DNA of 29,283 nt, from IMG/VR virus record IMGVR_UViG_3300031857_001001, positions 1 through 29,283 of that record. One strand, written 5' to 3'. The notes below the pieces were generated by a model. It had not been told where the DNA came from. It searched no databases and saw only the letters and a program-made list of their open reading frames with translations. Position 1 is the stretch's first letter; each line of letters begins with the position of its first letter. Below are positions 3,904-8,192 of the stretch, piece by piece. A program made the translations under genes and the position numbers. Source of the DNA: a virus.

Positions 3904-3933
3904 TAAAAAGAGGGAAGGTATAGTTACCTTCCC
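3904..3933 (-). terminator. Rho-independent terminator after the cobS-like gene
   Basis: A perfect 9-bp stem (GGGAAGGTA paired with TACCTTCCC, 3912-3920 and 3925-3933) with a 4-base loop is followed on the minus strand by TCTTTTT. It begins 9 bases beyond the cobS-like stop codon, which closes the transcription unit to its right. Confidence 0.85.
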
Positions 3934-3941
3934 ATATTATA

Positions 3942-5096
3942 TCAGAAAATGTTCTTTGGTGCAACCTCTTCGGTAGCTTCTTTGGTAGGCATTACAAAAT
4001 CAGCATCAATTTTATCGTACAACTCAAGGAACGCAGTTTTAGTTTCATCGTCAAAACGATTCACACAAACTTGAATTGCCTTTGCTTTGTCATTGAAAAT
4101 AGAGTATGCGCGAAGGATATGAACCAAACGACGAGTACTGATAATTTCCTCAATACCACCATCATAGAAGGTCTTACGAATTACATCACCCCAATCAACA
4201 AGACGTTTGCAGAATTCGCGATCTTCCACACCAAGATCCAGAGCAATACCCTCAAGAATCTTTTGTTCCACGGAAGGTGCAGGATAGGACTGCTCAAAGG
4301 TCACAGGGAAACGCTCAAGGAATGCTTCATTCAGAACGTTAGTACCAATGAAACGACCATCATCAGAACCTTTGCCTTTAGTGTTTGCGGTGGCAATCAC
4401 ATTGAATCCAGCAGCAGGTTTGACAAACCGACCAATCTTTTTCAGGAAGACACCTTTACCTTCCAGAACGGATTGCAGACAGAGAATCTTGTTAGATGCA
4501 AGGTCAATCTCGTCAAGCAGCAGGATAGCACCACGCTCAAGTGCCTCAATCACAGGACCATTGTGCCAGGCAGTTTCGCCATTCACAAGACGGAAACCGC
4601 CGATCAGATCATCCTCGTCAGTCTCAATAGTAATATTGACACGGATCAATTCGCGACCAAGTTGAGCACACGCTTGCTCCACACCGAACGTTTTACCATT
4701 ACCCGAAAGACCCGTAACGAACGTAGGATAAAAGAGACGGGAGTGAATAATTTTTTTAACATCATTGAAGTTACCAAACTTGACGAAAGTAGCATCTTTA
4801 TCAGGAATAAGGTTTTGGTGATGTTCGGGAAGGACAGCAACATTCTGGAAGGAACGCTCAATCTCTTCCACACGTTCTTGAGTCACCTCAAGATTCCATT
4901 TGCCACGACCAACTTTGAAGGGGTCAAGTCGCTTAGTGACAGTAGGATAGGAAAGATTTTTAGAAGCACAATAACCCCGCACATCGGCAGAAGTAATGGT
5001 GTCCCCGAAAGTAGTTTTCAGATCGTCAATAATTTGATTGTCATTCATTTTGATACGAGGCATAACGTAGTGGTTTTGTTTTTCAACTGTAGTCAT
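3942..5096 (-). CDS. cobS: CobS-like MoxR/CbbQ-class AAA+ ATPase
   Basis: AAA+ ATPase of 384 residues. Walker A GLSGNGKT is at residues 129-136, Walker B ILLLDEID at 191-198, sensor 1 ATANT at 235-239, and arginine finger ERF at 261-263. The N-terminal 100 residues look like a phage-specific DNA- or partner-binding part (TITSADVRGYCASKNLSY resembles a small helical motif). T4-like cyanophages carry this gene as cobS, after the cobaltochelatase ATPase, yet no CobN or other cobalamin gene is visible here. MoxR-class ATPases normally work with a VWA-domain partner, and one is encoded upstream at 5921-8077. It is preceded by a weak hairpin (5105-5128) and followed by a strong terminator. The family is secure, but a role in cobalamin synthesis is uncertain. 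Confidence 0.9.
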   Translation of the reverse strand: MTTVEKQNHYVMPRIKMNDNQIIDDLKTTFGDTITSADVRGYCASKNLSYPTVTKRLDPFKVGRGKWNLEVTQERVEEIERSFQNVAVLPEHHQNLIPDKDATFVKFGNFNDVKKIIHSRLFYPTFVTGLSGNGKTFGVEQACAQLGRELIRVNITIETDEDDLIGGFRLVNGETAWHNGPVIEALERGAILLLDEIDLASNKILCLQSVLEGKGVFLKKIGRFVKPAAGFNVIATANTKGKGSDDGRFIGTNVLNEAFLERFPVTFEQSYPAPSVEQKILEGIALDLGVEDREFCKRLVDWGDVIRKTFYDGGIEEIISTRRLVHILRAYSIFNDKAKAIQVCVNRFDDETKTAFLELYDKIDADFVMPTKEATEEVAPKNIF

Positions 5097-5104
5097 TATA
5101 AGGC

Positions 5105-5128
5105 AAAAGGGAGTCGGGCAGGACTCCC
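5105..5128 (-). terminator. Hairpin with short T run upstream of the cobS-like gene (possible weak terminator)
   Basis: A perfect 7-bp stem (GGGAGTC with GACTCCC, 5109-5115 and 5122-5128) and 6-base loop is followed on the minus strand by TTTTG. The T run is short, so it may attenuate rather than stop transcription entering the cobS-like gene, whose ATG is at 5096. It could also be an mRNA-stabilising or processing hairpin. Confidence 0.5.
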
Positions 5129-5160
5129 AGTGGCCAGTTCATCAAGTGGACCCATATTTG

Positions 5161-5316
5161 TTAAATGGTGTCCCTAAATTTATATGTGTATTGTGGATAG
5201 AATTTTTTTACGATATGAGGAACTCCATATCGCCCAAGGTGTCCATTTCCTTCCCAGCGAATATAAACTATTTTTTTATCTTCGTCAACTGAATGTTGAA
5301 ATGGAAATTTGTTCAT
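5161..5316 (-). CDS. Small ORF between internal protein and cobS-like gene (51 aa)
   Basis: The ATG at 5316 opens a 51-codon frame beginning MNKFPFQHSVDEDKK and ending YTYKFRDTI. It has no recognisable domain, but the composition is protein-like: mixed charge, aromatic-rich (IRWEGNGHLGRYG), predicted beta. It starts 7 bases after the stop of the internal-protein gene and fills an otherwise empty 225-base gap between two solid genes, so translational coupling is plausible. There is no strong Shine-Dalgarno. An overlapping ATG at 5321 stops after two codons. This is a plausible gene with no assignable function. Confidence 0.5.
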   Translation of the reverse strand: MNKFPFQHSVDEDKKIVYIRWEGNGHLGRYGVPHIVKKFYPQYTYKFRDTI

Positions 5317-5322
5317 CTCATT

Positions 5323-5895
5323 TTAATTAATTTTTGCTTTAGTCTTTGCAACATCAGAACTTGAGTCTTTTGCGTGCTTCATCAAACGAATAAGTTCGGT
5401 GACTTTTTTCTTTCTCTTTTCTTCTGCTTTTTGTTCAGGAGATTTTCTTGTTATGAATAATTCTTGAACATACTCTTCTGTTGCTGCTGCTTTTCCACTA
5501 TACTTTTTAGTTTTATTCTTTTGTGAGTTTTTTTCAATCTCGCGAGAAATAAGTTTCCTCTTGAGTACCATTCTTTTACTCAAAGGAGGAGGATTACCAA
5601 TTGCATTCGCAACTGTCATTCCGATACCTTCTTCAATCTCAACATCTTCAGGAAGACCAAGTTTTTTTCCTGCGGCATTCATTCTTTTTTTAGTGTCTGC
5701 TCTTCTATTTTTTTCTGCTTCTTTTTTGTGATCTACATTGTACCCGCCCTGAAATTTAGAAAAATCGGGGAGTGGTTTTCTGTCTTTATAATCTTCATAG
5801 TCTCTACCACGAACTGCTGGGCGCAAAGAAGTCCTAGATTTGGAATAACTTGAACGCCCATAAACTTCAGTAATAAAGTCTTGAAATGTTTTCAT
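5323..5895 (-). CDS. Putative internal (capsid-packaged) protein with T4-type capsid-targeting leader
   Basis: A 190-residue basic protein with 32 Lys and 15 Arg, about 25 percent of all residues. The first ten residues, MKTFQDFITE, match closely the capsid-targeting leader of T4 internal proteins IPI and IPIII (MKTYQEFIAE), which the gp21 protease cuts after that glutamate. Further I/L-x-E sites occur at LPE (81-83) and IEE (87-89). In T4 such proteins are packed in the head and injected with the DNA, for example to inhibit host nucleases. A perfect late promoter motif (5918-5925) precedes it, fitting late expression with the prohead genes. It lies between an HExxH-VWA gene and a CobS-like gene. 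The packaging role is inferred; the molecular target of the protein is unknown. Confidence 0.75.
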   Translation of the reverse strand: MKTFQDFITEVYGRSSYSKSRTSLRPAVRGRDYEDYKDRKPLPDFSKFQGGYNVDHKKEAEKNRRADTKKRMNAAGKKLGLPEDVEIEEGIGMTVANAIGNPPPLSKRMVLKRKLISREIEKNSQKNKTKKYSGKAAATEEYVQELFITRKSPEQKAEEKRKKKVTELIRLMKHAKDSSSDVAKTKAKIN

Positions 5896-5917
5896 ATCCC
5901 TAAAATACTTTTAGAGA

Positions 5918-5925
5918 TATTTATA
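5918..5925 (-). promoter_or_regulatory. Late promoter motif TATAAATA overlapping the stop of the VWA gene
   Basis: A perfect TATAAATA whose internal TAA is the stop codon of the VWA-protein gene (5921-5923). It lies about 23 bases upstream of the internal-protein ATG, so that gene can be expressed late independently of the VWA gene. Confidence 0.7.
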
Positions 5926-8077
5926 CCACAAGAGAAATGAACTCCCCAAGAACTTTTTTATTCAATTTTTTGGTTTTTAGTGATTTCACAAAGGCAGATT
6001 TAATTTGTGCCTTTGTTGCAGATTCCTTAACTTCAAAGTCACAATCCTGAGATAGTGCCGAGGAGGACAATCCAAAATATGCGTGATATGCAGAATTAGT
6101 GATTGTAAAACTTTTGAATTTTCTCCAATCATTCTGCATAATCCGATACTGATCATCGTAGTTATGATAAAGACTCATAAACCTACTTGCATCTTTACTG
6201 GCAATAATACGAATTCCCACAAAATTAACAGAGGTGAATTTATCTTTCAAGTTTTTGATGATAGTATCCGTAAATTTATGATACTCATATCCGAATCGGT
6301 AGGTAGTGCCCAACTTACGATCACGCAGAAAAACCTTTTCGTTAATTGCACGAACTCCAATATAGGAGTTTGATTCTCCCCTCTTGATTTCAACGTGATA
6401 GGGAATCGGTTGAGATTCTCCATCAGTTAGAACAATGCAATGAACTTTTTGCAGTCCGTTATTCTTTTGGAATACTGGGATAATTTCGTGCAAGCAAATA
6501 AGAGACTCATTCAAAGGAGTTCCAGACAGAGACAACCTGGAAGGAATGCTATATTTTGACGAATAGCAATTACTAAAGCAAGATGCAAGACGCCAGATAT
6601 TTACCATTTGCTTTTCCAGTTCATTTCCAGACACTTTGCTTGTGAGCAAGTTCATCAAAGCAAATCTATCATCAACAGACAGGATACCATCCTTTTTTGT
6701 ATAATGGCATTTCAAATCTGCACGGATATACTTTCCAGTTTGGTAATCATAAGTGCAAGAATTCCATTCATTAGTAAAGGCATAAACCTCGAAAGGAATA
6801 GATACTTTCCTGCAGAACCAAATCAAGTTGAAAAGTTGTTTGCACGTATCTTGCATCACATGGCTCATAGAACCAGACCAATCAAGAATAAAAATCAAAC
6901 CGTGATTTTTACCATCAGGAAGAACAGATACCTTCTTGAAGAGATCTTCACAGTACATATAACTATGCAGTTTTGAAGTATCAAGAACTCCAGTTCGCGC
7001 AGTAGTAACCCTAGCATAAGAATCTGCTGCTTTGCGGCATTCAAACTCTTTTACCAAATAACTAACTTCTTTTTGTGCTGAGGTCTTAAATTTACGGTAT
7101 TCCAAATCTACGCTTTGAAACGCATCAGAAGATTCTCCATAAGCATTTTTGTGCTTAATATTTTCGTGGCGAAAATGAGTATCAATTTCTTTGTGAATTT
7201 CTGTATTCTTTGCGATCACAGTATCAAGATTAACCTTTGGCACTTCAACATAGATGCTTTCAGATCCAAGCATATTTGCAAGATTTTTGATATTATCCGC
7301 AAGAGAATCTACAGTTCGGAGTTCAGGTTCTTCTTGATTTTTGTTTCCATCAAAAGAAACTTCATCGCCTTTAGCAGATCCAGATTGATTGGTCTCTTGT
7401 TGCAAATTTGGAGAAGATGCCTCATTTGTTTCATTTTCTCCTTCATTCTTTTCCTGCAGATCATTACTTTGATCACCAGAAGAACCAGATTCTTTCTGGT
7501 TCTCAACATTATCAATCTTTTCCTGTTCTTTTTGCTTTTTGCAATACTTATAAAGTTCTTCGGAAGCAATCAGAACGTCAGCAAATGTTTCTGCTACCGC
7601 AATCAGATCAACAATTTCCTGTTCTTCTGCAGTGAAATTCAGATCAATAAAATTGCCAATTTTAAAGTAAAGATTTACTTTGTCCGCAAGACTGAACTTA
7701 GAAATATCTTCGTCGCCAATAGAGAAGAAATCTTCCGCGTGAAGTTCTTTATACCCATTGAAAAAACTTTTAGGAGATCCCTGATACTTCCTCTTGCAGA
7801 GTTTTTCAACCCTAGCATCCTCAACAATATTCACATATTGCTGAGGAACTTTACAATTAACGGACCAATCCTCATTAGGAGTCCAAAGAGCGTGAGAAAT
7901 CTCATGCAAAACAAGCATAGTATAAATGCTATCACTGGCCTTCTCCCAAAGAGGCAGCGTCAGGCATCGCGTTTGAACATTAAAACAGGCGGTCTCTACC
8001 TTTTTATGTTCAACGATAATATCTTCAGTTGCCAGAAGGCGGGCAAGAGATCCTTTAATTTCAAGATTAACTGTCAT
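5921..8077 (-). CDS. CobT-like protein: HExxH metallopeptidase motif plus C-terminal VWA domain
   Basis: A 718-residue protein. Near the N-terminus LHEISHALWTP gives an HExxH zinc motif (His58, Glu59, His62), and NIVEDARVEK offers a third acidic ligand at Glu86, 24 residues on; this resembles the segment of CobT and related putative metallopeptidases. A Glu/Gln/Asn/Ser-rich linker spans about residues 185-255. The C-terminal VWA domain has a complete MIDAS: DWSGS (Asp399, Ser401, Ser403), Thr520 in SGTPLNES, and Asp552 in LTDGES. VWA proteins with such motifs pair with MoxR-class ATPases, and the CobS-like gene lies two genes downstream in the same unit. A possible promoter lies at 8101, behind the gp46 terminator. 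No metal binding or protease activity has been shown for it. Confidence 0.85.
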   Translation of the reverse strand: MTVNLEIKGSLARLLATEDIIVEHKKVETACFNVQTRCLTLPLWEKASDSIYTMLVLHEISHALWTPNEDWSVNCKVPQQYVNIVEDARVEKLCKRKYQGSPKSFFNGYKELHAEDFFSIGDEDISKFSLADKVNLYFKIGNFIDLNFTAEEQEIVDLIAVAETFADVLIASEELYKYCKKQKEQEKIDNVENQKESGSSGDQSNDLQEKNEGENETNEASSPNLQQETNQSGSAKGDEVSFDGNKNQEEPELRTVDSLADNIKNLANMLGSESIYVEVPKVNLDTVIAKNTEIHKEIDTHFRHENIKHKNAYGESSDAFQSVDLEYRKFKTSAQKEVSYLVKEFECRKAADSYARVTTARTGVLDTSKLHSYMYCEDLFKKVSVLPDGKNHGLIFILDWSGSMSHVMQDTCKQLFNLIWFCRKVSIPFEVYAFTNEWNSCTYDYQTGKYIRADLKCHYTKKDGILSVDDRFALMNLLTSKVSGNELEKQMVNIWRLASCFSNCYSSKYSIPSRLSLSGTPLNESLICLHEIIPVFQKNNGLQKVHCIVLTDGESQPIPYHVEIKRGESNSYIGVRAINEKVFLRDRKLGTTYRFGYEYHKFTDTIIKNLKDKFTSVNFVGIRIIASKDASRFMSLYHNYDDQYRIMQNDWRKFKSFTITNSAYHAYFGLSSSALSQDCDFEVKESATKAQIKSAFVKSLKTKKLNKKVLGEFISLVV

Positions 8078-8100
8078 TTGGACTTGTGCGTTATGAACCT

Positions 8101-8129
8101 ATTATACACGGAATAGACCTCTTGCATAG
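8101..8129 (-). promoter_or_regulatory. Possible promoter of the VWA gene (good -10, poor -35)
   Basis: A perfect TATAAT on the minus strand (8101-8106) lies about 25 bases upstream of the VWA-gene ATG, in the 115-base gap just after the gp46 terminator. The position expected for a -35 box (8124-8129, CTATGC) is a poor match. A promoter is needed here because the terminator isolates this gene, but its class (early, middle or activator-dependent) cannot be told. Confidence 0.4.
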
Positions 8130-8161
8130 GGGACATAGACACTTCAAAAAGTGGCACACAT

Positions 8162-8183
8162 AAAAAAACACCCATGATGGGTG
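8162..8183 (-). terminator. Rho-independent terminator after gp46
   Basis: A 6-bp stem (CACCCA with TGGGTG, 8169-8174 and 8178-8183) with a 3-base loop is followed on the minus strand by seven T residues. It lies 10 bases beyond the gp46 stop and ends the recombination gene unit. Confidence 0.8.
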
Positions 8184-8192
8184 CATCTTTGA

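Follow-up and report, generated by a model that had tools for sequence, protein, structure and literature searches.

A conserved MoxR/VWA gene pair of T4-like cyanophages and a proposed late cargo slot between its genes, probably two separate systems

Do four genes that lie between two terminators in a viral genome serve one purpose, or do they only share an address? The question is raised by a virus of cyanobacteria, IMG/VR record IMGVR_UViG_3300031857_001001, of which positions 1 to 29,283 were analysed (29,283 nt; hereafter the window). Four minus-strand ORFs are found there between gp46 and a DUF3310 gene, with gp45 next after the latter (Table 1). A preliminary description of the DNA had placed terminators at 8162-8183 and 3904-3933 and treated the enclosed genes as an isolated, shared and previously undescribed unit. 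Here, we describe evidence that favours another reading, to which we give a probability of roughly 0.7: the locus holds two separate things, an early intracellular ATPase/VWA-peptidase machine and a late cargo slot between its two genes.

Table 1. Features of the locus, in window coordinates
Feature	Position	Strand	Remarks
Terminator-like hairpin, after gp46 and before the VWA gene	8168..8184	-	
TATAAT, early-type promoter element	8101..8106	-	29 nt before the VWA start
Metallopeptidase-VWA gene (peptidase putative)	5921..8077	-	718 aa; phrog_459 'peptidase'
TATAAATA, T4-type late promoter motif at the VWA stop codon	5918..5925	-	30 nt before the 190-aa gene
Capsid-targeted basic protein gene	5323..5895	-	190 aa; proposed late cargo slot
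51-aa ORF	5161..5316	-	homologues in related loci
Third terminator-like hairpin, downstream of the 51-aa ORF and upstream of the CobS-like gene	5109..5128	-	
TATAAT, early-type promoter element before the CobS-like gene	5095..5100	-	
MoxR-class AAA+ ATPase gene ('CobS')	3942..5096	-	384 aa; phrog_249
Terminator-like hairpin, after the CobS-like gene and before the DUF3310 gene (start 3904)	3912..3933	-	

The ORFs and the flanking hairpins are present; their isolation as one unit did not stand. The third hairpin is as good as the two outer terminators, and a T4-type late promoter motif sits at the VWA stop codon; three transcription units are therefore predicted rather than one, with early-type signals for the VWA gene and the CobS-like gene and a late-type signal for the capsid-targeted gene. 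A terminator precedes the VWA gene in 68/77 relatives. One precedes the CobS-like gene in 42/62 loci, for which shuffled sequences give 2-6. Against a random expectation of 6%, TATAAT occurs at -27 to -32 of the VWA gene in 20/79 loci and before the CobS-like gene in 45/62, mostly at -27 to -40, and it is absent before the capsid-targeted gene (0/26). The T4-type late motif shows the reverse distribution: capsid-targeted gene, 13/26; VWA gene, 1/81; CobS-like gene, 1/64. In some relatives the capsid-targeted gene overlaps the VWA stop codon and has no clear late motif. CTAAATA at -45 was considered as the late promoter of these overlapping genes and rejected, as it also occurs in loci that have no capsid-targeted gene. 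Taken as predictors of transcription, the promoter and terminator motifs would rule out a single unit for the four genes. The preliminary description had itself held that transcripts assigning the middle genes to other units would speak against a shared unit, and the predicted arrangement comes close to that situation.

MoxR-class AAA+ ATPases act with VWA partners, as in CobS/CobT, CbbQ/CbbO, NorQ/NorD and RavA/ViaA. The VWA protein had been called an HExxH-VWA protein, and both elements are present: HEISH at residues 58-62 (nt 7892-7906) and the MIDAS motif DWSGSM at residues 399-404, with D399-S401-S403/T520/D552 as MIDAS residues. E86, 24 residues past the HExxH, is a candidate third metal ligand. 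In sets of 17 and 31 aligned proteins, no variation is seen at H58, E59, H62, E86, the MIDAS residues, T520 or D552, and the HExxH falls in a helix in the structure model. The N-terminal part is a putative zincin-like metallopeptidase domain whose putative metal ligands are conserved. Searched by sequence, the profile of the VWA protein had no match in the PDB, and none in six bacterial genomes in a run made without a positive control; when the model of the VWA domain was compared by fold, the best PDB matches included the NorD VWA domain bound to NorQ and the midasin MIDAS domain. The CobS-like protein, whose real start is probably the ATG at 5063, has Walker A (GLSGNGKT) and Walker B (LLLDEID) motifs that are invariant among relatives, matches PF07728 (63.6 bits) and PF08406 (23.5 bits), and has CobS and NorQ structures among its PDB matches.

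With Walker A and B, a CbbQ/CobS-type family match, a VWA MIDAS fold and adjacent genes, the ATPase and the HExxH-VWA protein are a conserved MoxR/VWA pair, encoded by adjoining genes across T4-like cyanophages. The VWA protein matched 463 phage records, nearly all of them cyanophages, and the order gp46, VWA, CobS-like, gp45 recurs in annotated regions, among them those of a pelagiphage and of an Ochrobactrum phage that is more distant. A comparison across T4-like cyanophages had been proposed as a check of linkage. The VWA-CobS linkage held in annotated regions; that of the middle genes did not, as most relatives that have the pair lack them (S-PM2, Syn1, S-T4, HTVC008M and OC). Nor is the pair new: under the name cobST it is known from cyanophages and haloviruses (PMC8651126), and jumbo phages have been reported to carry it as MoxR with a metallopeptidase-vWA partner (PMC7824862).

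A rival reading takes the pair to be CobS/CobT, which together with host CobN would increase the cobalamin supply of ribonucleotide reductase (PMC8651126). CobS is the top bacterial solved-structure match of the ATPase, after midasin; the N-terminus of the VWA protein resembles CobT around EQARVEAIG; and PF02514 proteins do exist in cyanobacteria (Synechococcus elongatus was detected as a control). Set against this, the ATPase scores 67.5 bits with the CobS model TIGR01650, whose curated equivalog cut-off is 558.55. The CobT family PF06213 does not match the protein of the window and reaches only 1/17 relatives, at E 0.49, and a CobT profile comparison with the VWA protein aligned only 39 columns at 5% probability. 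In the CobTs compared, the motif is degenerate (HDxxxH or similar), whereas the phage proteins retain HExxH. CobN was sought in the window and not found, as the preliminary description had noted for this 29 kb fragment; the CobN family was also found in 0/198 genomes of the Pelagibacteraceae, yet pelagiphage HTVC008M, whose host belongs to this family, carries the pair. Because the CobS and CobT cut-offs were not reached and CobN is missing from those 198 genomes despite the pelagiphage pair, we regard cobaltochelatase activity as improbable. The earlier proposal of a phage remodelling or processing machine gains support, and judged by sequence the pair is probably such a machine.

We infer both remodelling and peptidase activity for the pair. 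Made early and acting inside the cell, the machine would use the MIDAS domain of the VWA protein to dock the ATPase ring on a substrate; the ring would remodel it, and the peptidase may afterwards cut the remodelled substrate. A related possibility is that the pair works in virion morphogenesis, where it would remodel and clip structural proteins; such a role has been proposed for jumbo phages and inferred in the case of p618/p892 of Acidianus two-tailed virus. The shared architecture with the jumbo-phage pair, the Acidianus precedent and the recurrent proximity of capsid-targeted cargo point that way. The early-type promoters and the location among replication genes do not, and S-N03 and S-H34 have the cargo lyase but no pair. 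In the S-CREM2 virion proteome, no detected protein derives from 31-34 kb, where the pair lies; the pair could still act transiently in assembly. On balance, we consider a role in assembly rather doubtful, though less so than one in cobalamin synthesis.

The 190-aa protein between the two genes had been described as an internal protein bearing a capsid-targeting sequence (CTS), and this description fits. Its N-terminus, MKTFQDFITE, agrees with the T4 capsid-targeting definition (PMC9026906), which asks for aromatic residues at 4 and 7 and for I/L-x-E at 8-10; 23/26 relatives likewise have E as residue 10. The protein is basic (net +20, K+R over D+E), and with the late motif TATAAATA at -30 of its gene it looks like an internal head protein. 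Expressed late, it would be sent into the prohead core by its first 10 residues, a gp21-type protease should cut it after FITE, and it would then be packaged and injected. A tblastn search with this protein against named phages gave no match, its sole close contig (L002) is an identical copy, and the PF23780 SAM-lyase domain was not found in it at the cut-off.

Among relatives selected by their VWA gene, leaving aside loci found via the capsid-targeted protein, 15/63 have a capsid-targeted protein in the VWA-CobS interval. Capsid-targeting starts number 18 in 47.6 kb of this interval, 1 in 292 kb upstream and 0 in 160 kb downstream, an enrichment that rules out chance matching of the motif. 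Such relatives occur in only a part of the cyanophages, and cargo was gained or lost at least 12 times on the VWA tree, which rules out single inheritance. Most of the interval proteins carry a SAM-lyase domain; PF23780 was found in relatives at 62.7 bits against a cut-off of 28, and it exceeds the cut-off in L004, L038, L040 and L060. A phmmer search of the PDB with one relative's lyase found no match and a lyase profile reached Svi3-3 weakly (E 0.54), so the identification rests on the fold search, which matches T3 lyase and Svi3-3. The shared module C was sought in an S-SCSM1 virion protein and not found.

Virion proteomes had been suggested as a further check, and the S-CREM2 study agrees for the cargo and not for the ATPase/VWA pair. 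A SAM-lyase homologue was detected by mass spectrometry with 19 peptides; the authors caution that such virion-listed proteins may be contaminants (PMC10665884). The S-CREM2 lyase begins with MKDFDSFLEE, a weak targeting sequence only, and the passages of the article consulted do not mention fusion of a lyase to a T4-type targeting sequence. The slot in relatives would usually deliver a SAM lyase, injected along with the DNA. We put at about even odds a fuller account, in which the VWA-ATPase interval is a dedicated late cyanophage cargo slot that chiefly holds SAM lyase with T4-type targeting. The lyase would be packed into the head, where the prohead protease would trim it between E and SSL, and co-injected with DNA to strip SAM at entry, and SAM-dependent restriction and BREX-like defences would fail before phage expression. 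The protein of the window would be a variant in which the lyase module was lost or had never been acquired.

Could cargo and machine still work together, with the capsid-targeted protein and the 51-aa ORF as its cargo or substrate, or as regulator of the pair, as first proposed? Capsid-targeted genes are very strongly concentrated in the VWA-CobS interval, and the small ORF recurs: in about 20 related loci, homologues of about 60 aa (KFPFEHVVKYD...) directly precede the CobS-like gene. The late promoter that lies at the VWA stop codon accounts for the positional bias. Moreover, the promoter types differ, there are two terminators, many phages have nothing between the genes of the pair, and lyase relatives occur at other genome positions, whether or not the genome also carries the pair. 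As the lyase is found without the pair in some phages, machine and cargo do not have to work jointly. We infer that there is no functional bond between them, and a single functional unit seems unlikely.

The reading of two separate systems has consequences for both. In marine cyanophages, the 'cobS' gene ranks among the core auxiliary metabolic genes and is cited in vitamin B12 arguments, a reading that is altered if, as the evidence favours, it belongs to a machine that remodels proteins and has kept its protease motif intact. The cargo enzyme of related viruses destroys the methyl donor of the cell and could disarm host defences; a head-targeting sequence on SAM lyases offers a concrete route for a cyanophage to disarm methylation-dependent defence before transcription, in parallel with the action of T4 IPI on type IV restriction.

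Several known systems resemble parts of this locus. The phage VWA domain has NorQ/NorD and the midasin MIDAS domain among its best PDB fold matches; the substrates differ, and to our knowledge no metallopeptidase domain has been reported in either. Likened by architecture, a close system is the group 2.2 jumbo-phage pair (PMC7824862), with neighbouring ATPase and VWA genes and an N-terminal metallopeptidase fused to VWA; unlike that pair, the one described here is fixed in the T4-like replication cluster, has early-type promoters and is off the S-CREM2 virion list. The viral cobST cluster (PMC8651126) comprises these same cyanophage genes, there called CobS and CobT, whereas here the scores fall below the CobS/CobT cut-offs, HExxH is intact and a cobalamin role is judged unlikely. 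Acidianus two-tailed virus p618/p892 are likewise a viral MoxR ATPase and VWA partner, but without a peptidase domain and with p618 as a virion component. As for the cargo, T4 IPI, IPII and IPIII share the 10-residue start with aromatics at 4 and 7 and hydrophobic-x-E at 8-10, the basic body and the late promoter; the body itself is unrelated, and the cargo of relatives carries SAM lyase. That cargo shares domain and fold with Svi3-3, the T3 SAM lyases and the S-CREM2 virion SAM hydrolase (PMC10665884), from all of which the 190-aa protein of the window differs in having no lyase domain.

On this 29,283-base fragment of a T4-like cyanophage, an IMG/VR virus record, the ATPase and the VWA protein are assigned to a MoxR/VWA pair by family, motif, modelled fold and gene order, as the preliminary description had proposed. 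The ATPase sequence profile reaches midasin, CobS, CbbQ and NorQ. HExxH, E86 (a candidate third metal ligand) and every MIDAS residue show no variation among 17 VWA proteins with identity down to 22%, nor among 31 closer ones; an AlphaFold2 model of the VWA protein (pLDDT 76) places HExxH within helix 49–65 and E86 within helix 79–97. A PDB fold search with this model returned the NorQ-bound NorD VWA among the best matches, with the midasin MIDAS next at weaker scores. The VWA protein has tblastn matches in 463 phage records, and a CobS-like gene lies downstream in all 16 annotated relatives whose VWA region was inspected, with no gene separating the two in S-PM2, Syn1, S-T4, DSL-LC02, HTVC008M and OC. 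In S-CREM2 (OR473000.1, 31017–34271) they also adjoin, but away from gp46 and gp47, and are annotated as a ribosome assembly protein and a MoxR-like ATPase. That genome thus carries the pair, in contrast to its publication, which states that cobS is missing from cluster C marine strains (PMC10665884).

Features of the region, with genes in minus-strand order
Feature	Position	Strand	Remark
gp55		-	
gp47		-	
DUF3110		-	
gp46		-	
VWA protein	5921-8077	-	718 aa
Late motif TATAAATA	5918-5925	-	T4-type; across VWA stop codon
Basic protein	5323-5895	-	190 aa
51-aa ORF	5161-5316	-	
Hairpin GGGAGTCCTGCCCGACTCCC then TTTT	5128-5109	-	terminator-like; hairpin scan; between 51-aa ORF and CobS-like gene
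CobS-like ATPase	3942-5096	-	
DUF3310 protein		-	
gp45		-	
ORF antisense to CobS-like gene	4071-5177	+	368 aa
ORF antisense to VWA gene	7115-8116	+	333 aa

Codon usage probably accounts for the two long plus-strand ORFs. S-IOM18 has a homologue of the 51-aa ORF (L025, 4995–5177) near the terminase gene, about 21 kb from the VWA gene of that phage, so this family also travels alone.

The phage genes have been read as cobST (PMC8651126), and a review had already doubted homology to bacterial cobS (PMC5083919). The ATPase scores 67.5 bits, far short of the CobS equivalog cut-off of 558.55, and the VWA protein does not reach the threshold of PF06213 (CobT family). In eight cellular CobTs the position of the phage HExxH is taken by HDxxxH or a similarly degenerate motif, although their EQARxEAIG just after it resembles the phage EDARIEKL; the CobT–phage VWA profile comparison is weak. 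The pelagiphage HTVC008M carries the pair, yet the CobN/Mg-chelatase family occurs in 0 of 198 Pelagibacteraceae genomes (positive controls included), which we count against this function. On these comparisons the pair is unlikely to be a cobaltochelatase, and its earlier placement outside cobalamin synthesis is supported.

The four genes had been described as one unit bounded by two terminators. Both hairpins are present, but the same scan gives a third inside the supposed unit. Such hairpins occur 5' of the CobS-like gene in 42/62 loci, against 2–6 in shuffled sequence and 10.5% of random windows, and 5' of the VWA gene in 68/77. TATAAT stands 29 nt 5' of the window's VWA gene and again directly 5' of its CobS-like gene; in relatives it is found at fixed distances from 20/79 VWA and 45/62 CobS genes (random, 6%), and 5' of none of the 26 capsid-targeted genes. 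The T4-type late motif NATAAATA, the cyanophage late promoter consensus (PMC2984593), precedes 13/26 capsid-targeted genes, 1/81 VWA genes and 1/64 CobS genes, and further window copies sit 5' of structural genes, that of the tail sheath stabiliser among them. The third hairpin, the early-type TATAAT and the distribution of the late motif lead us to predict three transcription units in place of one. The gene after VWA in relatives, capsid-targeted or not (e.g. MSRFTDLFQEP...), often has NATAAATA at the VWA stop codon.

The 190-aa protein begins MKTFQDFITE, which bears out its reported capsid-targeting sequence under the T4 rules (residues 4 and 7 for targeting, 8 and 10 for processing, with L/I-x-E as the gp21 site; PMC9026906). 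Around VWA genes, 18 such starts fall in 47.6 kb of VWA–CobS interval, compared with a single one in 292 kb upstream and none in 160 kb downstream; a fair control is the gp46–VWA interval (54 kb), which is equally variable. A start is present in 15 of 63 complete VWA–CobS intervals, a count leaving out three loci retrieved via the capsid-targeted protein itself. Over whole records (~2.8 Mb) a similar pattern matches 26 times, against once when reversed. A tree of 86 VWA proteins requires at least 12 changes of the trait. Among the capsid-targeted proteins, 23/26 have E as residue 10, and their bodies are nearly all basic. The best account of the positional bias is a late promoter with a fixed place at the VWA stop codon, so that the interval stands ready to receive late genes.

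The window's protein combines the targeting sequence with basic modules that recur both in long basic proteins and in further capsid-targeted ones. A relative of the long proteins carries a virion-protein annotation in S-SCSM1, but the shared module was not found in it. Loci L008–L017 of relatives encode such long proteins (501–794 aa), with repeated E-rich boundaries like prohead-protease sites, and these are possibly head polyproteins. Long basic-looking proteins in the VWA–CobS interval of six other loci (L022, 7239–8993; L023, 6208–7116; L057, L074, L078, L080) start with an LRxLQEAYM-like sequence, perhaps a second head-targeting signal.

No lyase domain was found in the window's 190-aa protein. 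In relatives, PF23780 SAM lyase scores up to 62.8 bits (cut-off 28) at four loci (L004, L038, L040, L060), and by alignment the domain is complete in at least 13 of 26 capsid-targeted proteins and partial in others. Two residues are conserved, the tyrosine of the catalytic site (Y58 in Svi3-3) and a glutamate in E-x-S (E69-N-S in Svi3-3), and a model of the L047 protein (pLDDT 59.5, modest confidence) has T3 SAM lyase and Svi3-3 as its top two matches among 350,542 chains. Lyase function of the cargo in relatives is likely. The domain start is preceded by E (E|SSL) in nearly all, plausibly a gp21 site.

The S-CREM2 virion proteome gives a SAM hydrolase (ORF6) with 19 unique peptides and lists no protein from 13.9–42.2 kb (PMC10665884), a region that includes the VWA and ATPase genes (31.0–34.3 kb); its authors suggested that the enzyme is injected, and cautioned about contamination. 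In S-N03 and S-H34, from which the pair is missing, a lyase gene adjoins gp47, and the S-N03 domain exceeds the cut-off. Cargo and machine therefore occur apart. We favour an early intracellular machine in which the pair would carry out ATP-driven remodelling (probability about 0.7), possibly with cleavage of its substrate; that it serves virion assembly specifically seems unlikely. The cargo would be packed late into the head and then injected.

In the literature searched, mostly outside subscription journals, we found no description of the combination of targeting sequence, lyase and pair, of a fixed slot with an embedded late promoter, or of its repeated turnover. The pair and the targeting sequence are already known, and a virion-borne SAM lyase has one earlier report, in the S-CREM2 paper (PMC10665884).
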